Assembly (NCBI RefSeq): GCF_016100975.1
Contig: NZ_JACFRN010000001.1
Span: 310,001-374,000 of the forward strand
Source: Lactobacillus sp. W8174
GTDB taxonomy: Bacteria; Bacillota; Bacilli; Lactobacillales; Lactobacillaceae
Direction: 5' to 3'
Length of the DNA: 64,000 bases
Made by a program: the position numbers and the translations under genes. Under the pieces are notes generated by a model that was given only the letters and a program-made list of their open reading frames with translations, was not told the DNA's origin and did no database searches. Positions 36,324 to 44,627 of this stretch are shown here, one piece after another (the first letter of the stretch is position 1; each line of letters begins with the position of its first letter).

Positions 36324-36379
36324 TTGCAAAAGTTGATTATTTATTTTATTATACTAGTGTATTAGATAAATAGTTCACT
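36324..36379 (+). promoter_or_regulatory. Promoter and GntR-type operator of the first ABC unit
   Basis: TTGCAA (36324-36329), a 17-base spacer and TATTAT (36347-36352) form the promoter. Four bases further lies an inverted repeat, AGTGTATTA-N6-TAGTTCACT (36356-36379). The left half is identical to the sites before the two gntR genes at 38882 and 42675, and the right half matches the mirror sequence at 7 of 9 positions. Confidence 0.65.
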
Positions 36380-36409
36380 ATTATAATATAAGAGAAAGGA
36401 TGAGTGATC

Positions 36410-37297
36410 ATGCGAAGTTCTATTGCACTACAAGTCGATAATGTTTGCACTTATGTGGGCAAGACAGTGCTAGTTAATAATGCTACTTTTGATGTTAAAG
36501 CTGGTGAAATAATAGGTCTAATAGGCCCAAATGGAGCTGGAAAAACAACTATTATGAAAACCATTTTAGGGTTAATGAAATTTAAAGGAAAAATAGAGGT
36601 CAATGGCAAAAATGTGTCTGAAAATGAACATCATGCTTTAACAAAGGTTGGAGCATTAATTGAACATCCAGCAATTTACCCATTTCTTACTGGTATGCAA
36701 AATTTGACCCTTTATGCTCATGATCAAAAAGATATGGCAAATTTGATTTCTGAATTACAAATGGATTCATATATTAATAATAAGGCTAAAGGATATTCAC
36801 TAGGGATGAAGCAAAAATTAGGCATAGCAATCGCCTTATTAAATCAGCCCCAAGTTGTAATTCTTGATGAACCAATGAACGGACTTGACATTGAATCAAC
36901 GATTCGAGTAAGAAAATTAATTAAAAGATATTCTGATCAAGGAACAGCTTTTTTAATTTCAAGTCATATTTTAAGTGAATTACAAAAAGTAATGACGAGA
37001 GTTGTCTTAATCTCCGGAGGACAAATTATATTGAATAAAGAGGTCAAAGAATTTGAAAAAATTAGTCACCAAAAATACCATTTGACTACTGAAAATAATA
37101 AACTTGCAAAAAAGATTTTTGCTGCTTACCAGATCACATTTACGGCAAATGAAAACTATTTGATAGTAAGCCAAAAGGATATCTACAAAATACAAGATCT
37201 GCTTTTTAAAGAAGGAGTTCATTTAAATGAGATGTTACCTCTTGAGGCCAACCTTGAACGAATTGTAGTTGATGTCTTGGAAAAGAAAAGGGGCTAG
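36410..37297 (+). CDS. ABC transporter ATP-binding protein, BcrA-like
   Basis: I chose the ATG at 36410, because the AAAGGATG ribosome-binding site is too close to the in-frame GTG at 36404. The roughly 295-residue ATPase has Walker A (GLIGPNGAGKTTIMKT), an unusual signature (KGYSLGMKQKLGIAIAL), Walker B (QVVILDEPMNGLD), and the H-loop SSHILSE. The GALIEHPAIYPFLTGMQNL segment is typical of peptide-resistance ATPases such as BcrA. It is followed by two permeases, so the unit is probably an export or immunity complex. Confidence 0.85.
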   Translation: MRSSIALQVDNVCTYVGKTVLVNNATFDVKAGEIIGLIGPNGAGKTTIMKTILGLMKFKGKIEVNGKNVSENEHHALTKVGALIEHPAIYPFLTGMQNLTLYAHDQKDMANLISELQMDSYINNKAKGYSLGMKQKLGIAIALLNQPQVVILDEPMNGLDIESTIRVRKLIKRYSDQGTAFLISSHILSELQKVMTRVVLISGGQIILNKEVKEFEKISHQKYHLTTENNKLAKKIFAAYQITFTANENYLIVSQKDIYKIQDLLFKEGVHLNEMLPLEANLERIVVDVLEKKRG

Positions 37298-37302
37298 ACA
37301 GA

Positions 37303-38058
37303 ATGCTTATAAGCTTTAAACAGGAAATCTATAAATTCAGGCATGAAAAGATTGCTCTGTATGGTCTGATTATTCTCATTGTAACAATGATTTACAACTT
37401 TTTTACTAATCCTATTACGCGCCAATCCCTTGGCTACGGATTTGGTGCAATTGAGTGGATTCCTTTAATAGTTATTACCGTAGCATCTGTAATTTTTTCA
37501 ATGGAATACAAGAATAACACGATTATCATGCTGGAGTATAAAACTTCAAGCAAGTTTCAAATTTACTTTTCCAAGTTTTTGGTTGTCTTAGTCTATAGTT
37601 TTCTCCTAACAGTGATTGCATTTTTACTTACCTTGATTTTAAGCATGTTCTTTATTGCTGCTAGATATGATTGGTTAGTTAACCAAAAGGGGCATATTCT
37701 CTTAAATAATCTGCTAATTAACTTAGCAGGAGCATTGATTTATTCTTTTTTTAGTATTGGCTTATCTTTTATGCTCATTATGCTGGTTAAAAATAATGCT
37801 GTAGTAGTTTGTTTTGGAATTGTACTAGCATTTTTTGGTGCCAGCTTTTCCAAAGGATTAATGCAAACCTTTCCCCATTTTATAAGTACTATTAAATGGA
37901 ACTTTTTAAATATGATTTTTATTTCCCAGCAATTATCAAATCCAAGCCTTAGCTTAAAATCGAATTTATCAAGTCTTGAACTAATTATAGCCAATATCGT
38001 TTACGGAATAGTTTTTATGATTCTAGGATATTATCTATTCAAACATCGACGAGTATAA
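37303..38058 (+). CDS. ABC-2 type permease, first
   Basis: This 251-residue integral membrane protein has about six hydrophobic segments (ALYGLIILIVTMIYNFF, WIPLIVITVASVIFSMEY, LVVLVYSFLLTVIAFLLTLI and others). It starts LISFKQEIYKFRHEK, which parallels IFSIKQELYKLVHRK of the next gene, so the two are paralogues. The FSMEYKNNTI motif after the second segment is shared (FSMEFQNNTI in the partner). It lies 5 bases after the ATPase gene and should pair with it in the membrane. Confidence 0.85.
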   Translation: MLISFKQEIYKFRHEKIALYGLIILIVTMIYNFFTNPITRQSLGYGFGAIEWIPLIVITVASVIFSMEYKNNTIIMLEYKTSSKFQIYFSKFLVVLVYSFLLTVIAFLLTLILSMFFIAARYDWLVNQKGHILLNNLLINLAGALIYSFFSIGLSFMLIMLVKNNAVVVCFGIVLAFFGASFSKGLMQTFPHFISTIKWNFLNMIFISQQLSNPSLSLKSNLSSLELIIANIVYGIVFMILGYYLFKHRRV

Positions 38059-38076
38059 AGAGAGGAGATCACTAAA

Positions 38077-38835
38077 ATGATTTTTAGTATTAAGCAGGAA
38101 TTATATAAATTAGTGCACCGCAAAATTACTTGGATCGCAGCTATCATATTATTTTTTTTAATGCTTATTACCGGTTTCGCTTTAGCAGATGAAAGTAAAA
38201 AGCTAATTTTAACATTAACTTTTGATTCTTCTGATTTTATCATGTTTATCCTAGTGATCGTAGGTGCCACGTGCTTTTCAATGGAGTTTCAAAACAATAC
38301 GATTTTAACACTCTTATATAAGTCTTCGAATAAAATATATGTCTACTTATCGAAGTATATTGTTTTGTTCTTATACGATGTTTTTCTGCATTTGCTAGCT
38401 CTTTTTTATACCATTTGTCTGCGTTATACCATATTTAATTATCGAGTTAATTGGTCAGAACTTTATCTATACCATCAGCCGGTATGGCTAAACATGGTAA
38501 CTGCTTCTCTAGTAGATTTAGTAACAACAATGTTAATTATTGCTATTGTTTTTTTACTCTCGTGTCTAATTAATAGTAGTGCAATTGTAATTACAGCAAG
38601 CCTTCTAATTACATTTATGGGTCAAAGTATTTCTTCGGACCTAATGAATGGAGGCAAACTGGTGAATATTATGAAATGGAACCCTTTTAATATGGTGGAC
38701 TTGACCAGGCAATATGGTAATTATGGCATGTATGTTTTAACTACCCACCTTAATAACCAAGAGCTTTTAGTGGGTAGTCTAGTCTATATTCTTATTTTTG
38801 TGATTGCCGGCTATTTAATCTTTCGCAGAAAATGA
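38077..38835 (+). CDS. ABC-2 type permease, second
   Basis: This 252-residue, roughly six-segment membrane protein is paralogous to the preceding permease, with the same N-terminal QELYKLVHRK and FSMEFQNNTI motifs. A GAGAGGAG ribosome-binding site precedes the ATG. Together with the BcrA-like ATPase it probably forms a heterodimeric membrane channel. No terminator was seen before the next promoter. Confidence 0.85.
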   Translation: MIFSIKQELYKLVHRKITWIAAIILFFLMLITGFALADESKKLILTLTFDSSDFIMFILVIVGATCFSMEFQNNTILTLLYKSSNKIYVYLSKYIVLFLYDVFLHLLALFYTICLRYTIFNYRVNWSELYLYHQPVWLNMVTASLVDLVTTMLIIAIVFLLSCLINSSAIVITASLLITFMGQSISSDLMNGGKLVNIMKWNPFNMVDLTRQYGNYGMYVLTTHLNNQELLVGSLVYILIFVIAGYLIFRRK

Positions 38836-38849
38836 TTTTAAGTAATTAA

Positions 38850-38905
38850 TTGCATAACTTTTAAGTTTATTGTAATATTATAGTGTATTATAAATGTAAT
38901 ACAGT
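38850..38905 (+). promoter_or_regulatory. Promoter and operator of the second ABC unit
   Basis: TTGCAT (38850-38855), a 17-base spacer and TAATAT (38873-38878) are followed 3 bases later by AGTGTATTA-N6-TAATACAGT (38882-38905), a near-perfect inverted repeat overlapping the expected transcription start. This placement suits repression by the GntR protein encoded just downstream. Confidence 0.7.
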
Positions 38906-38917
38906 TAGAAGAAAATT

Positions 38918-39271
38918 ATGAATTTTAGAGACGATTTACCGATATATATACAAATAAAAGAATATCTATGTCGCCAAATAATCACCGGCAAGCTTGAGCC
39001 AAATCAGAGGATTCCCTCTGTACGCCATTTAGCAACGCAGTTGACAGTGAACGTTAATACTATTCAAAAAGCACTCAAACAAATGACTACGTCAGGGCTT
39101 TTAATTACTAAAAGAGGAGAGGGTAATTTTGTTACTAGCGATAAAAAATTATTGGAAAAAATCAAAAGAGACATGATAGTTGCTGAACAACGTAAGTTTG
39201 TTCAGAACATGAAAAGCTTAGGAATCACGCCAAAACAAACTAATCTTATTTTGGCTAATCACTTAAAGTAG
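38918..39271 (+). CDS. GntR-family repressor, YtrA subfamily (first copy)
   Basis: This 117-residue protein has the GntR winged helix (DLPIYIQIKEYLCRQIITGK, RIPSVRHLATQLTVNVNTIQ, RGEGNFVT) and only a short helical C-terminal tail. That is the YtrA layout, which typically represses an adjacent ABC transporter operon. It is followed 11 bases later by an ATPase gene. The inverted repeat over its own promoter suggests autoregulation. It is a close paralogue of the protein at 42716. Confidence 0.9.
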   Translation: MNFRDDLPIYIQIKEYLCRQIITGKLEPNQRIPSVRHLATQLTVNVNTIQKALKQMTTSGLLITKRGEGNFVTSDKKLLEKIKRDMIVAEQRKFVQNMKSLGITPKQTNLILANHLK

Positions 39272-39282
39272 GGAGTAAAAAA

Positions 39283-39987
39283 ATGGATAATCTTTTAGAA
39301 ATCAGAGATTTAACTTACAAGAAAAATCTGAAGACGATTTTAAATAATATCAACTTAAATTTACAACCAGGAAAAATAGTAGCACTTTTAGGCGAAAACG
39401 GCGCTGGTAAAACGACCTTAATGAGGGTAATTAGTGGGATGGCTAAAAACTATCGTGGAACCGTAAAAATTTCTGGTGAAAGTAAAGAGGCTCAACGAAA
39501 AGCCCGGCTATCATTCACTGATAGTCTAACGGGTTTTAACAACTCAACTAAAATCAAAGATATTGTTAAATTTTATGAAATTATTTATCAAGATTTTGAT
39601 GGTAAACAATTTGAGCAACTTCGTCAGTTTATGAAATTAGATCCTGAAATGCGGTTATCTGAGATGTCAAAAGGGATGCGAGAAAAATTAATTATTGCAC
39701 TTGCATTTTCGCGCAAAGTTGATCTTTACCTATTGGATGAACCTTTTTCCGGTATTGATGCTATGGCTCGTAAAAAAATTATTAACTCAATCATTTTATG
39801 GAAACCAGAAAAATCAACAATTCTCGTTTCAGATCATTTTGTCAACGAAATTGCCAGTATGTTAGACGAAATAGTCATAATCAAAGACCAAACCATTTAT
39901 ACTCATAAATCAACTGAAGAGATACGCGAACACCATAAGAGCGTTGAAGACTACTATGAAAGTTTATATGAGGCGGAGGATGAATAA
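39283..39987 (+). CDS. ABC transporter ATP-binding protein (first SQTWRL unit)
   Basis: This 234-residue ATPase has Walker A (LLGENGAGKTTLMR), a degenerate signature (RLSEMSKGMREKL in place of LSGGQ), Walker B (LYLLDEPFSGID) and the H-loop VSDHFVNE. The SEMSKG form is common in YtrB-type ATPases. Its last bases overlap the next gene's ATG by one base, so the ATPase and the first membrane protein are coupled. It is paralogous to the ATPase at 43081. Confidence 0.9.
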   Translation: MDNLLEIRDLTYKKNLKTILNNINLNLQPGKIVALLGENGAGKTTLMRVISGMAKNYRGTVKISGESKEAQRKARLSFTDSLTGFNNSTKIKDIVKFYEIIYQDFDGKQFEQLRQFMKLDPEMRLSEMSKGMREKLIIALAFSRKVDLYLLDEPFSGIDAMARKKIINSIILWKPEKSTILVSDHFVNEIASMLDEIVIIKDQTIYTHKSTEEIREHHKSVEDYYESLYEAEDE

Positions 39988-40796
39988 TGGCTACTTTCAA
40001 CCACTTATTTGGCAAACTTTTTGAAAAAAAAGCCAAATATGTTCATCTACTAGTTGTCCTGCAATTTATCAGTTCTCTGGCATCAGCGTTTTTTACTTAT
40101 TTTAGTTTTTATTCTGGCAGGTTTCACTTAAATTTGAACAATAACCTTGAATTTTTTCCAGGATGGATGGCCTTATTTGCTTCTTTTACTTTCCTGTTTG
40201 GACCTATTTTATATATTTTAACTGTCGTTCAGAATGAACGCTTAAATAGAAGTCAGACATGGCGTTTGGCACCAATCAGTGATGGCAAATTCTATGCTGC
40301 TAATATCTTAAGTTCATTTGTTTCATTAATTTATTTTGTGTTTTTAGATTTTTTAATTGCAATTGGTTTTTTCCTTTTGTCATTAATAATTTACCCCCAA
40401 TTTGGCAAAAATCTGCGGTTTGAACTCAATTTAGATACTGACACATTTCTTACCTTTATTTGTATCATACTGTTGGTAATTCTAACTTCTCTTTTTATTT
40501 ATTTTTTGGTTAGTTTCCTCAACTTTTCCAGTCAGGCAATTTTAAGTTTTTTACCACAAGCATCAAGTCATATTTTAATTTCTTTTATTCGTATATTCAT
40601 CATTATCATATTAATGGGACTGCTTGTTAAGCTCTATAGAGTATTGATAAACTCTTTTGTAAATCTTTTTTTACTAAAAGCTACTGATCTTGCGGGATTA
40701 GAATATGTTGTAGGTATGATGTTTGTTGCTAATTTGATAATGCTTGGCATCAACGTCTTTTTAATCAATCATTTCTTTGAAGCAGAAGAGAAGTAA
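39987..40796 (+). CDS. SQTWRL-motif membrane protein A (ABC permease partner, unknown family)
   Basis: This 269-residue protein has about six hydrophobic segments. The motif RSQTWRLAPISDGKFYAANI follows the second, and FLVSFLNFSSQAI lies late in the protein. It ends in an acidic NHFFEAEEK tail. These features recur in three neighbouring proteins. The one-base overlap with the ATPase gene implies that it is the channel part of the same complex. I know no characterised family with this motif. Confidence 0.75.
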   Translation: MATFNHLFGKLFEKKAKYVHLLVVLQFISSLASAFFTYFSFYSGRFHLNLNNNLEFFPGWMALFASFTFLFGPILYILTVVQNERLNRSQTWRLAPISDGKFYAANILSSFVSLIYFVFLDFLIAIGFFLLSLIIYPQFGKNLRFELNLDTDTFLTFICIILLVILTSLFIYFLVSFLNFSSQAILSFLPQASSHILISFIRIFIIIILMGLLVKLYRVLINSFVNLFLLKATDLAGLEYVVGMMFVANLIMLGINVFLINHFFEAEEK

Positions 40797-40840
40797 ATCA
40801 TAATATTTTTTACAATATTTTCATAGTAGGGGGAAAGAGT

Positions 40841-41680
40841 ATGACCTCATTTAAAAATTTGTTTGGCAGATTCTTTGTCGAAAAAGCAAAAAATGTTTAT
40901 TCATTTTTAATTATTCAAACAGTTGGTGCCCTTGCATTTTCTGTTTTTGGTCTGCTAATCGGGACAGGTAAGATAGGTGAATTTTTAAATTCTTATACTG
41001 AGCTTTTACCTGACTGGTTAATGGGCTTTTGTCTATTAGGTGTCTTTTTTGTCATTTTCTTTTTTATTTATATTATTGTTAAAAATGAAAAGATTAACCA
41101 TAGTCAAACATGGCGTTTAACTGCAATTAGTGACGAAAAATTTTACATTGCTAACAGTTTAAGCACATTTGCAACGTTTGTTTATTTCATTATTCTTAAC
41201 ATCATTGTTGCTGGTATCTTGCTAACTGCTTCATTTTTTATGGACAAGGCTTTTCGTAATTCATGTGAGAGAATGTTTAAGCAATTTAGACCAAATTTTG
41301 AACTAAATACAATTCGTTTTATTTTTGATATCACGCTACTCATACTTTTATGTTGCTTTTTCATTTCGTTATTGATCAGCTTTTTAAATTTTTCCAGTAA
41401 AGCCATCATGGATTATCTTCCTGTAGCTTCAAGTGGGTTAATTGTCAAACTATTACATATTTTTATTGTTATCGTAATAGCATGGCTTTTTACTAAAGTA
41501 GAAAAAATTTTTGTCGATCAAGTTTTAGGCAGCCTCTTGAATTTTTTAAACTTAAATCCGGCTTATAACAACGCTTTACCATATGTTAATGTAATTGTTG
41601 TAGTTGTTAATTTAATAATGTACGTTATTAATATCTTTTTATTTAAGTATTTCTTTGAGGCAGAAGAAAAAAGTAGCTAG
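40841..41680 (+). CDS. SQTWRL-motif membrane protein B
   Basis: This 279-residue paralogue of protein A has HSQTWRLTAISDEKFYIANS after the second hydrophobic segment, SLLISFLNFSSKAIMDYL late in the protein, and a KYFFEAEEKSS tail. It has its own GGGGGAAAG ribosome-binding site 44 bases after protein A. It is the second of three tandem membrane genes behind one ATPase gene. Confidence 0.75.
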   Translation: MTSFKNLFGRFFVEKAKNVYSFLIIQTVGALAFSVFGLLIGTGKIGEFLNSYTELLPDWLMGFCLLGVFFVIFFFIYIIVKNEKINHSQTWRLTAISDEKFYIANSLSTFATFVYFIILNIIVAGILLTASFFMDKAFRNSCERMFKQFRPNFELNTIRFIFDITLLILLCCFFISLLISFLNFSSKAIMDYLPVASSGLIVKLLHIFIVIVIAWLFTKVEKIFVDQVLGSLLNFLNLNPAYNNALPYVNVIVVVVNLIMYVINIFLFKYFFEAEEKSS

Positions 41681-41726
41681 TAAAACAATATTTGTCACCA
41701 GTTAGAAATAAAAATAAGGAGTCAAA

Positions 41727-42566
41727 ATGTCGGAATTTAGCAGACTATTCAATAGATTTTTTAAAATTAAAGCAAAAAAATTAAAAATATTGCTGTCTTT
41801 TCAGCTAATTGCAGCTCTAGCATGTGCCTTTTTTACTTATTATGAAGTTACAAATTGGCATATCCAAAAAAATTTAAAAAATAATGTCGGTTTGATACCA
41901 GAATGGGCATTATATTTTGTCATCTTAGCCTTCTTTGTCATATTATTTGTATTTATTTTAACTCCTTTGCAAAGTGAAAAATTTAATCGAAGTCAAACCT
42001 GGCGTTTAGCTGGAATAAGTGATAGTCAGTTTTATCTAGATAATGTTTTGAGTACATTTGTATCTTTTATTTACATGCTTGCGTTTGAAGTAGTTGCTGC
42101 AGTTATGCTAGGTTTCTTATCTTTTTTGGTTGATAAAGATTTTCAACGAGGACTTCATGATTTCCTAATGGATCTACATCCTAATTTTGATTACAATTTT
42201 TTCTGGACTGTAATTGGTACGATTGTCTTAGCCATTTTAAGTTGTTTCTTTTTATACTTTGTTATCAGTTTCTTTAACTTTGCTAGCCAGTCCATAATAG
42301 ATTTTGTACCCGCCAACGTTAATGGAGCACTAGTAAAGATACTCCATTTATTCATAATTTTTGTACTAATCTGGTTCTTTTTTAAAATTCAACATATATT
42401 TGTCTACAAAATTCTTTTATCAGTATTTAACCCAGCTAATTACGGACTTGCTTTTTCTAGTGATTTACCTTTTGCAATTTTGTCAACCACAATTTGCGAT
42501 CTTATTTTGTTGGTCAGCAACGTTTTCTTATTTAATCATTTTTATGAAGCTAGTGAACGTAAATAG
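41727..42566 (+). CDS. SQTWRL-motif membrane protein C
   Basis: This 279-residue paralogue has RSQTWRLAGISDSQFYLDNV, YFVISFFNFASQSIIDFV and an NHFYEASERK tail. An AAGGAG ribosome-binding site precedes the ATG. About 150 bases of AT-rich DNA follow, ending in the third unit's promoter. No terminator was recognised between them. Confidence 0.75.
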   Translation: MSEFSRLFNRFFKIKAKKLKILLSFQLIAALACAFFTYYEVTNWHIQKNLKNNVGLIPEWALYFVILAFFVILFVFILTPLQSEKFNRSQTWRLAGISDSQFYLDNVLSTFVSFIYMLAFEVVAAVMLGFLSFLVDKDFQRGLHDFLMDLHPNFDYNFFWTVIGTIVLAILSCFFLYFVISFFNFASQSIIDFVPANVNGALVKILHLFIIFVLIWFFFKIQHIFVYKILLSVFNPANYGLAFSSDLPFAILSTTICDLILLVSNVFLFNHFYEASERK

Positions 42567-42645
42567 GTAGGCAAATAAGAAAAAATTACTTTTACAATTT
42601 TATAATTTCTCACAAAAAAGCAAGTTATTACAACAATTAAAAGGT

Positions 42646-42698
42646 TTGCGGAAAAAATAAATCTGGTTTATGATAGTGTATTATAGGTGTATTACGGC
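42646..42698 (+). promoter_or_regulatory. Promoter and operator of the third ABC unit
   Basis: TTGCGG (42646-42651), a 17-base spacer and TATGAT (42669-42674) abut AGTGTATTA-N6-TATTACGGC (42675-42698). The left half is identical to the other two sites, while the right half matches the mirror sequence at only 5 of 9 positions. The second half can also be read as a direct repeat (GTGTATTAC). Confidence 0.6.
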
Positions 42699-42715
42699 CA
42701 AAGGATGGTGGACTT

Positions 42716-43081
42716 GTGGAATTTAAAGATAACATTCCCATTTACTTACAAATTAAGCAATACCTATATCGACAAATAATTACCGGCAAATTGAAGCCAG
42801 GTAAAAAAATCCCTTCTGTACGTGAACTAGCAGTGCAACTCACTGTAAACGTCAATACGGTACAACGTGCCTTACAACAAATGAACTTTGAAGGCATTTT
42901 GTATACCAAGAGGGGAGAAGGTAATTTTGTCACTGAAGATACTACTTTACTTGAAAAAACGAAAAGGGAATTAATTGACGCTGAACTAGACAAATTTGTT
43001 CAGAGCATGAACTCTTTAGGGGTTTCTGATGAACAAATTCTCAAATCTTTAACTGAATATCTTAAAGAGGAGCGTAAATAA
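42716..43081 (+). CDS. GntR-family repressor, YtrA subfamily (second copy)
   Basis: This 121-residue paralogue of the protein at 38918 has the same winged-helix blocks (NIPIYLQIKQYLYRQIITGK, KIPSVRELAVQLTVNVNTVQ, RGEGNFVT). It starts at a GTG after AAGGATGGTGG. Its stop overlaps the ATPase ATG by one base. Two nearly identical DNA-binding regions suggest both repressors read the same operator. Confidence 0.88.
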   Translation: MEFKDNIPIYLQIKQYLYRQIITGKLKPGKKIPSVRELAVQLTVNVNTVQRALQQMNFEGILYTKRGEGNFVTEDTTLLEKTKRELIDAELDKFVQSMNSLGVSDEQILKSLTEYLKEERK

Positions 43082-43788
43082 TGGGCAATCCCTTAGAAAT
43101 AACAGACTTAGTTTACAAAAAGAACCAGAAAAAAATTATTACTGACTTAAATTTAACCCTTAAACCAGGAAAAATTGTTGCTCTTTTAGGTGAAAACGGA
43201 GCGGGCAAAACTACTTTAATGCGAATAATTAGTGGCTTAGCTAAAAACTATCGAGGCACTGTTAAAGTTGCAGGTTTTGCCAAAGAAGCTGACAGAAAGG
43301 CACATCTTTCTTTTACTGATGGCCTGACAGGATTTGCTAATTCAACTAAAATCAATGATATTGTCAAATTTTACCAAATTTTATACCATGATTTTAGTCT
43401 AAAGCAATTTGAGCAGTTAAGAAAATTCATGAATTTAGATTCTGACATGCGCTTATCTGAAATGTCTAAAGGAATGAAAGAAAAGCTGGTAATTGCTTTA
43501 ACTTTTTCCAGAAAAACGGATTTATATCTTTTGGATGAACCCTTTTCCGGCATTGATGCTATGGCTCGCAAAAAAATTATTAAATCGATAATTTTATGGA
43601 AGCAAGAAAAATCCACTATTTTAGTTTCAGATCATTTCGTAAATGAAATCGCTGCGGTTTTGGATGAAGTTGTTATTATTAAAAATAAAACTGTTTGTAT
43701 GCATAAGTCGACTGAAGCAATTAGAGCTGATAATCAAAGTGTAGAGGAATTTTATGAGAGTTTTTATCAAAGAGAAGAGGATGAATAA
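43081..43788 (+). CDS. ABC transporter ATP-binding protein (second SQTWRL unit)
   Basis: This 235-residue paralogue of the ATPase at 39283 has LLGENGAGKTTLMR, RLSEMSKGMKEKL, LYLLDEPFSGID and VSDHFVNE, and the same KNYRGTVK and FTDGLTGFANSTKI segments. It is coupled by one-base overlaps on both sides, to the repressor before it and the membrane protein after it. Confidence 0.9.
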   Translation: MGNPLEITDLVYKKNQKKIITDLNLTLKPGKIVALLGENGAGKTTLMRIISGLAKNYRGTVKVAGFAKEADRKAHLSFTDGLTGFANSTKINDIVKFYQILYHDFSLKQFEQLRKFMNLDSDMRLSEMSKGMKEKLVIALTFSRKTDLYLLDEPFSGIDAMARKKIIKSIILWKQEKSTILVSDHFVNEIAAVLDEVVIIKNKTVCMHKSTEAIRADNQSVEEFYESFYQREEDE

Positions 43789-44627
43789 TGGCTATTTTTA
43801 ATCGCTATTTTACGGTGCTTTTCAGATTAAAAACCAAATGGATTTCTCTTCTGTTAATTATCCAGACCGTAGCTTCATTTGCGATGTCGTTTTTCAATTT
43901 TAATAACGGCCATGTGTACATTAATAGAACTATTTTTTCTAATTTCTTTACCTTGTGGCTGACTATTTTTGTGGTATCAGCGTGGCTTTTTACCGGGATA
44001 TTTTATTTAACCACCTGTTTTCAAAATGAACGTGTCAGTAAAAGTCAGACTTGGCGTTTAGTACCAATTGATGATAAAAAGCTGTATTTCGATAATATTT
44101 TAAGTTCGTTTGGTGCATTGCTCTTCTTTGTGATACTCGAAATAATTTGCACATTAATTTTAGGCGTTGTTACTTTTACTTTTGATAGTCAGTTTCATAC
44201 TGTCATAATCGAAATGTTTACTGATATTGGAAAGCATTTGCAGCAAGTTGATCTGGAAATTATGTTTAACTTCTTTGGTGCAATTATGATGGCCATTCTT
44301 TGCGCATTTTTTGGTTACTTCATTATCAGTTTTTTAAACTACTCCAGTCGTGCACTTTTGGATTTTCTTCCCCAAGCACTCAGCAAAGCTTACTTTCGGG
44401 TAATTGCAGTGTTTGTGATTATTTTAGTTGCCTGGCTTGCAATCAAAGCCAGTAACATTGGCCTACAAATAATTTCATTTCCGTTTAGATTTATGATGGG
44501 AGAAACCACAGGTACAAATGACGATTTAGCCCTAGCACTAATCTTAATGCTCGTAATCAATCTGTTCTTTTGGCTCTTGGATACAATCCTCTTCAGTAAA
44601 TTTTTTGAGGCAAGGGAAGGAAAATAA
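43788..44627 (+). CDS. SQTWRL-motif membrane protein D
   Basis: This 279-residue protein has KSQTWRLVPIDDKKLYFDNI after the second hydrophobic segment, YFIISFLNYSSRALLDFL late in the protein, and an SKFFEAREGK tail. It is the single membrane partner of the ATPase at 43081, in contrast to the three partners of the upstream unit. A perfect-palindrome terminator ends the unit. Confidence 0.75.
   Translation: MAIFNRYFTVLFRLKTKWISLLLIIQTVASFAMSFFNFNNGHVYINRTIFSNFFTLWLTIFVVSAWLFTGIFYLTTCFQNERVSKSQTWRLVPIDDKKLYFDNILSSFGALLFFVILEIICTLILGVVTFTFDSQFHTVIIEMFTDIGKHLQQVDLEIMFNFFGAIMMAILCAFFGYFIISFLNYSSRALLDFLPQALSKAYFRVIAVFVIILVAWLAIKASNIGLQIISFPFRFMMGETTGTNDDLALALILMLVINLFFWLLDTILFSKFFEAREGK

Follow-up and report, generated by a model that had tools for sequence, protein, structure and literature searches.

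YtrA-type and Pmt-type systems compared with the Lactobacillus locus

In Bacillus subtilis, the ytr and ywo operons stand under the repressor YtrA and are induced by cell-wall antibiotics, and overexpression of YtrBCDEF thickens the cell wall (PMC7828314). The staphylococcal pmt genes export phenol-soluble modulin (PSM) peptides and are induced by them, the repressor PmtR being released by PSM peptides (PMC5080381). A YtrA-type operon of Streptococcus thermophilus goes up with the bacteriocin-inducing peptide BlpC (PMC10826417), and in Lactiplantibacillus plantarum the genes lp_2739-lp_2744, which encode a YtrA regulator with an ATPase and a permease as well as a BceAB-like transporter and a small peptide, are predicted to form one regulon (PMC4600210; the predicted regulon also in PMC7278804 and PMC8772861). 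PMC3616900 likewise names a YtrA regulon for lactic acid bacteria. We compared with them a locus of Lactobacillus sp. W8174 (GCF_016100975.1), contained in a stretch of 64,000 nucleotides (NZ_JACFRN010000001.1, positions 310,001 to 374,000; hereafter the window, with positions counted from its first base), where four membrane proteins sharing the motif SQTWRL stand behind small GntR repressors and ATPases of ATP-binding cassette (ABC) transporters.

The four proteins appear to form a rapidly diverging branch within the well-known group of ABC-2 export permeases. Their genes form two cassettes on the forward strand, both with the order YtrA-type GntR repressor, ATPase, permease(s), one with three permeases (38918-42566) and one with a single permease (42716-44627). 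The first contains repressor 1 (38918..39271, 117 aa), ATPase 1 (39283..39987) and permeases 1 (39987..40796, 269 aa), 2 (40841..41680, 279 aa) and 3 (41727..42566, 279 aa), and the second contains repressor 2 (42716..43081, 121 aa), ATPase 2 (43081..43788) and permease 4 (43788..44627, 279 aa).

Both repressors have the features of the YtrA subfamily, with a GntR winged helix (Pfam GntR 5.2e-16 and 1.3e-16), a short C-terminal part, a length of about 120 aa and an adjoining ABC transporter. They are 63% identical to each other and are the only short GntR repressors of this type in the genome, the nine other GntR matches being in frames of 235-265 aa. The best NCBIfam families were PdxR (2.6e-18) followed by PmtR (1.6e-16) for repressor 1 and PmtR (1.5e-19) for repressor 2, all of them below the cut-off.

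Each cassette has its own, apparently intact ATPase, encoded by a gene overlapping or adjacent to that of the permease, with the Walker A sequence GENGAGKT, an S-x-G signature and LLDEP (YLLDEP in ATPase 1) preserved. They match ABC_tran in Pfam (1.3e-25 and 2e-23) and best match PmtA in NCBIfam, below the cut-off (2.8e-39 and 6.8e-34). Among solved structures, the ATPases scoring best against them are the ABC-A domains of ABCA1, ABCA3, ABCA4 and ABCA7. ABC-A domains partner type V permeases. The earlier note on this DNA had singled out SEMSKG in place of LSGGQ as a mark of these ATPases, a proposal we reject, since the corresponding signature is MSKGM in both, most relatives have LSKGM, LSRGM or LSKGN, and most of the PmtA-type ATPases listed have LSTGM or FSTGM, with YSMGM in the PmtC type.

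With PmtR/PmtABCD the cassettes share a YtrA-type repressor in first place, followed by ATPase and permease, and the coupling motif of PmtB is in register with SQTWRL. However, PmtB is an ABC2_membrane_5 protein of mostly 201-230 aa with a SLPVS-type motif, whereas the four window proteins are longer and match no family, and the counterpart of PmtC/PmtD stands apart in the window as a unit of its own. The Pmt equivalog scores of NCBIfam are not reached (135 and 117 of 350 bits for PmtA, 60 and 70 of 200 bits for PmtR). No ABC2_membrane_5 match was found in the four; proteins at the PmtB place of loci L127, L129, L136 and L138 do match it (L129 below the cut-off). Three loci with a PmtA-family gene (L129:3404-4770, L130:2370-3664 and L131:1620-3615) carry two or three permeases in a row where PmtB is otherwise encoded, as judged by position, a parallel to the tandem permeases of the window. 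A locus from another family of the order (L107:2199-6424) holds a repressor, an ATPase A, two members of the SQTWRL family, an ATPase C and an ABC2_membrane_2 permease, which is the pmtR-pmtABCD order (PMC5080381) with a different B subunit.

The YtrA regulon of B. subtilis (ytrGABCDEF and ywoBCD) has in common with the window, by its description in PMC7828314, a YtrA-type repressor and an ABC transporter with two ATPases and two permeases; the genes are one operon in B. subtilis and are dispersed here.

A permease family without a database name

The presence of four ORFs of 269-279 aa sharing SQTWRL was confirmed, and they are homologous, since permeases 2-4 are 36-38% identical to permease 1 and permeases 1 and 4 find each other with a BLASTP E value of 3e-47. 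The motif is unchanged in all four (RSQTWRLAPISD, HSQTWRLTAISD, RSQTWRLAGISD and KSQTWRLVPIDD), at about 40251-40268, 41102-41119, 41991-42008 and 44043-44060 in permeases 1 to 4, respectively. Two further shared segments of the earlier description are looser than claimed: ISFxNxxS reads VSFLNFSS in permease 1, and the FFEAxE tail reads FYEASE in permease 3. A search of the own genome returned only these four copies at E<=0.001, with no fifth.

We looked for a strong match of all four to a characterised permease family in Pfam and NCBIfam and found none, nor any match of value, the best score being Abhydrolase_9_N with permease 3 (0.0092), far under the cut-off. A search of PDB sequences with a 28-row family profile gave no match at E values up to 1, a tblastn search of plasmids with permease 1 gave no match, and a literature search for the string SQTWRL found no paper. 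The claim that no described family carries this motif thus stands for Pfam, NCBIfam and the one literature search for the motif. The isolation it implied does not, in view of the ABC-2-like fold predicted below and of degenerate forms of the motif elsewhere in Lactobacillales. The SQTWRL proteins are a real and conserved permease family that lacks a name in Pfam and NCBIfam and is of a known kind.

The alignment of 133 family ORFs, fragments included, shows SQTWRL as the local form of a wider (Y/F/W)RLxPxSDxKxYxxN, with exceptions that include WQL and WNL. Neither the final L of the motif nor a C-terminal E varies in the alignments of 36 and 82 rows. In other families of the order the motif reads SQYRLLPISEAKFYFSN or DYRLLPISTGKLYFYN. 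The profile match of these distant members to the family (99.3%) is not independent evidence, since their loci were found with the 36-row profile; the presence of the same repressor and ATPase in 8/8 of these loci is independent.

The earlier note states that the proteins are in every case accompanied by a YtrA-type repressor and an ATPase. This holds in the window (38918/39283 and 42716/43081) and fails in some relatives, where repressor and ATPase lie directly upstream of a family permease in 65 of 70 fetched loci, drawn from two partly overlapping collections. The exceptions are L030, cut by a contig end, and L094-L097, with a permease alone. The orphan permeases (L094:3976-4812, L095:3817-4653, L096:3672-4580 and L097:3529-4443) have no repressor, no cassette ATPase and no palindrome above 14 bits nearby, and may need an ATPase encoded elsewhere. 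ATPases lying beside the orphans of L094, L095 and L097 were considered as partners and dropped, because the one in L095 belongs to a set of amino-acid-uptake type that includes a binding/permease protein of 498 aa (assessed by eye). By the same kind of inspection, the neighbours of the L095 orphan are this ABC set and a peptidase-like gene, and L096 has a helicase-like gene.

Predicted fold and remote similarity

AlphaFold2 modelled permease 1, from 82 aligned sequences, with a mean predicted local distance difference test score (pLDDT) of 90.7 and a predicted template modelling score of 0.84, and permease 2, from 28 rows, with a pLDDT of 81.4. In the permease 1 model, SQTWRL (residues 89-94) coincides with a short helix (90-93) between the long helices 56-88 and 99-135. 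In ABC-2 transporters, the coupling helix sits between the second and third transmembrane segments (TM2 and TM3). The predicted six-helix arrangement with a short helix between TM2 and TM3 resembles that of an ABC-2 permease. Judged by helix order, the motif is thus placed by the model at the coupling-helix position, which supports the earlier guess of a cytoplasmic coupling loop to the ATPase.

Structural comparison of the permease 1 model with VIA-align gave as first row chain A of PmtCD, taken as PmtD from its length (Z 10.7, root-mean-square deviation 3.9, 192 aligned residues), followed by ABCA4 (9.3), NosY (9.2) and then CcmB, LptG, Wzm and Pdr5. Of the first 25 rows, 24 belong to ABC transporters, which we class as type V in 18 cases and as LptG in 6; the remaining row is a designed protein. 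Profile comparison with hhalign pointed in the same direction for two alignments of the family, A3 and A4, which scored 26.5% and 40.5% against PmtB, the motif being in register with the SLPVSKxxLL segment of PmtB (sequences taken as PmtB from their gene place beside PmtA). Against a set of PmtD and ABC2_membrane_4 permeases, A3 reached 29.9%, again with the motif in register. As a yardstick, PmtB and this PmtD/ABC2_membrane_4 set, both accepted ABC-2 families, score 22.7% with each other.

Several results weigh against an ABC-2 fold. For helical proteins, VIA-align Z values below about 13 can arise by chance. Foldseek alone found no PDB match at E<0.001 for either model, its first rows being PmtCD and NosDFY chains. 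Alignment A4 scored 0.7% against the PmtD/ABC2_membrane_4 set, and among nine automatically built membrane clusters the four that are ABC-2 by their members gave 0.2-4.2%, with 0-0.9% for the five others, so the profile evidence depends on hand-chosen alignments. A single-sequence hhalign search against 345 ORFs returned the family itself and then values of at most 2.2%, and the two ABC-2 permeases of the neighbouring window cassette were not among the 90 matches listed. The curated ABC-2 domain models of Pfam match none of the four, and among 36 family members one reaches ABC2_membrane_4 (1.1e-4; either L028:8001-8810 or L086:8012-8860). Member L069 scores better than that with DUF5671, an unrelated-looking family (1.5e-5, below the cut-off). 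The permease 2 model gave a more mixed list below PmtD and NosY, with syntaxins and a designed helical protein at 7.5-8.1. Despite the warning on Z values, we accept an ABC-2-like fold as most likely on the predicted models, because the better of the two lists nearly only ABC permeases, over its whole length.

Operator-like palindromes and a candidate regulon

Of 42 distinct regions of relatives (window and the ten loci L014-L023 excluded), 41 carry the palindrome TAGTGTAATAGnnAAATAnTACACTA before the repressors, as found with an iterated matrix; this number is no test, since the matrix was fitted to those regions. The window had no part in the training of the matrix with which it was scored, and 10 Markov sequences of 64 kb, used as controls, peaked at 9.6 bits. 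The best site of the window, TAGTGTATTAGATAAATAGTTCACTA (36355..36380, forward strand, 29.3 bits), lies before a neighbouring ABC-2 cassette, and a second one (38881..38906, forward strand, 20.9 bits) lies before the repressor 1 gene. We infer that the YtrA-type repressors bind these two palindromes. Outside the window, loci of two other families of the order, which were not part of the training set, show 19.2-32.9 bits before the repressor in 7/8 cases.

The neighbouring cassette (36404-38835), which we take to be of the LanFEG/BcrAB kind, is composed of an ATPase resembling lantibiotic-protection and PmtC ATPases (36404..37297, forward strand; best NCBIfam TIGR03740 galliderm_ABC, 6.7e-54, below the cut-off) and two ABC-2 permeases (37303..38058 and 38077..38835, both forward), with Pfam ABC2_membrane_4 scores of 7.2e-12 and 1.8e-10. 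An ATPase with two ABC-2 permeases is also the make-up of the LanFEG and BcrAB immunity exporters. The permeases of this neighbour match ABC2_membrane_4, whereas the four SQTWRL proteins do not. Its palindrome is located just downstream of a promoter-like TTGCAA-17-TATTAT (36324-36352), although such matches are not above chance in number (46 against 43.4 expected).

In the loci L014-L023, the site before repressor 1 is conserved in 10/10 (17.9-21.2 bits) and the one upstream of the neighbouring ABC-2 cassette in 7/10 (19-29 bits); the flank is missing from L017, and a search of L019 and L023 showed no such ATPase. In L015, the called ATPase frame begins 198 bases after the palindrome.

Elsewhere in the own genome, comparable sites were inspected at three places. 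One of 31.8 bits (L150) starts 49 bases before the gene of a 249-aa ATPase, followed by FtsX-type permeases of 601 and 604 aa, a set called BceAB-like here from its size and domains, and another of 19.7 bits (L151) precedes the genes of an ATPase and of a permease that has FtsX and MacB_PCD domains (MacB-like). In NCBIfam, both ATPases come closest to LolD, below the cut-off, and the 601-aa permease has no match. A third site, of 28.9 bits (L149:1310-1549, contig C11 from 206809), lies 45 bases before the gene of a 64-aa membrane protein with one helix; this gene is upstream of riboflavin genes. On this sequence evidence, the most likely arrangement is a multi-transporter envelope-stress regulon, in which the palindrome would connect the repressors and their permease cassettes with the LanFEG/BcrAB-like, BceAB-like and MacB-like genes.

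Other observations speak against such a regulon. The site before repressor 2 (42674..42699, forward strand) is degenerate, with one good half-site, and we rejected it as an equal of the others because its 7.0 bits are within the control range, no better than chance; its half-site TAGTGTATTA is exact in 8/10 of the loci L014-L023. Locus L108, from another family of the order, has no palindrome above 14 bits before its repressor. In the own genome, the pattern with up to 2 mismatches gave 13 matches at nine places, of which the two window sites, L149, L150 and L151 were inspected, and a reversed control pattern gave 6.

The predicted regulon lp_2739-lp_2744 of L. plantarum is alike by description, with a YtrA regulator, ATPase, permease, BceAB-like transporter and small peptide (PMC4600210), and this peptide (lp_2741) parallels the 64-aa protein of L149. 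Its permease, lp_2744, is a lead as a member of the SQTWRL family, being a counterpart by description only. Four further Lactobacillaceae loci (L171-L174), taken as a test of this link, have both the cassette and the palindrome, with no BceB-like match.

Possible function

We consider it likely that the four proteins are ABC-2-fold (type V) exporters in an envelope-stress regulon, working like the YtrA and Pmt systems, and that the repressors probably sense cell-envelope damage. In the mechanism proposed here, which builds on the observed homology, gene order, predicted fold, motif position and shared palindrome and where repressor binding, inducer, substrate, transport direction and permease pairing are what we infer, two permeases, same or different, would pair with a dimer of the cassette ATPase. 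The segment SQTWRLxPISD would be the TM2-TM3 coupling helix docking into the ATPase, and the EAxE tail would be cytoplasmic. The small repressor, sitting on the palindrome over the promoter, would keep the transporter low until an envelope-active compound, probably a bacteriocin, an antimicrobial peptide or a cell-wall antibiotic, disturbs the membrane or the lipid II cycle and the repressor is released. The permeases would then rise jointly with the LanFEG/BcrAB-like neighbour and with the BceAB-like and MacB-like transporters encoded elsewhere, and the induced transporters would extrude the compound or dislodge it from the membrane. The suggested counterpart in L. plantarum goes down with plant phenolics (PMC4600210, PMC8772861 and PMC7278804), a response that neither favours nor excludes this scheme.

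A possible, if doubtful, alternative is that the cassette acts mainly on the cell's own envelope, as YtrBCDEF does, altering peptidoglycan or lipid carriers with no toxic compound being exported. The YtrA-type repressor, the permease paralogues and the palindrome-linked MacB-like and BceAB-like genes recall the ytr system, for which the wall thickening on overexpression is described (PMC7828314). However, the likeness to YtrC and YtrD is by description only, and the 13 matches beyond the genus in a search of the class with the 82-row profile are all partial and weak.

Somewhat less probable, and in our opinion unlikely, is a dedicated bacteriocin or peptide exporter, or a self-immunity system, of the Pmt kind, with its cognate peptide made by the same cell. 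PmtA as the nearest NCBIfam family of both ATPases, PmtR as that of repressor 2 and the second of repressor 1, the pmtR-pmtABCD order of L107 and the resemblance of the neighbouring ATPase to lantibiotic-protection ATPases would all fit, but the Pmt models score far below their cut-offs, the ABC2_membrane_5 domain of PmtB is unmatched by the four, and the cassettes showed no separate peptide gene, although ORFs under 80 aa were not searched there.

That the four are accessory membrane proteins (regulators or sensors) travelling with the ATPase, and not ABC permeases, is very improbable, since the lack of a Pfam ABC-2 match in any of them, the sharing of one ATPase by three proteins and the orphans without repressor or cassette ATPase are outweighed by the single family protein that follows the ATPase in most loci of other genera (17 of the 20 loci L066-L085) and by a predicted fold closest to ABC-2 permeases with a helix at the coupling position.

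Returning to export by type V transporters, one ATPase with interchangeable permeases (three here and six in L086) might give varied homo- and heterodimers, a single repressor thus freeing combinatorial exporters tuned to bee-gut bacteriocins; we offer this as a long shot. Should the tandem permeases really depend on a common ATPase, subunit exchange in type V exporters would have a natural test case in them. What this analysis adds is the definition of the family, the palindrome and the predicted regulon of several transporters. A family that matched in over one third of the sampled Lactobacillaceae genomes can now be given a predicted fold, with a likely coupling helix, and a likely operator, and for bee-gut lactobacilli an envelope-stress regulon of several transporters is predicted.

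Distribution and history of the family

A profile search, which the earlier note proposed as a check, extended the family to 113 of 301 sampled Lactobacillaceae genomes, in 16 of 38 genera (28-row profile, E<=0.001), and more weakly to other families of the order; of 295 sampled genomes of the order, 36 match with the 36-row profile, nine of them outside Lactobacillaceae (one of these, G899, being short with internal stops). The 398 genomes of the phylum sample gave, with the 28-row profile, only the own genome and one spurious match (L063/L103, short and with internal stops), and the 249 genomes of the class sample gave, with the 82-row profile, two genomes of the genus and the 13 weak matches mentioned above. 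Scoring was limited to the best 6-10 candidates of each genome, so the genome counts are lower bounds.

The counterparts of permease 1 in L. huangpiensis, L. kimbladii, L. kullabergensis and L. laiwuensis are 94-96% identical to it. We regard these species, together with the others named among L014-L023, as honey-bee gut lactobacilli. From one to six permeases follow one ATPase in Lactobacillus. Distant relatives mostly have one permease per ATPase and the honey-bee group has three; in the loci of other Lactobacillaceae genera (L066-L085), the cassettes of L076 and L084 hold two permeases each, and that of L085 holds two ATPase-permease pairs.

A midpoint-rooted tree of 118 permeases unites permeases 1-3 with their counterparts from L014-L023 in a single clade (support 0.98), which has 33 sequences, 11 for each permease. 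Permease 4 represents a separate lineage, grouping with its ten counterparts (1.0), next with L100 (0.91) and then with L088 (0.80). The topology points to an origin of permeases 1-3 by tandem duplication in the common ancestor of that group, with permease 4 as an older lineage.

Another Lactobacillus locus (L086:3895-8860) has six tandem family permeases behind one ATPase and one repressor. Finally, L100 (3446-7150) and L085 (2371-5715) have the order repressor-ATPase-permease-ATPase-permease, and L100 shows a second palindrome, of 32.6 bits, before its second ATPase. These two arrangements may represent stages on the way to the double cassette found in the window.

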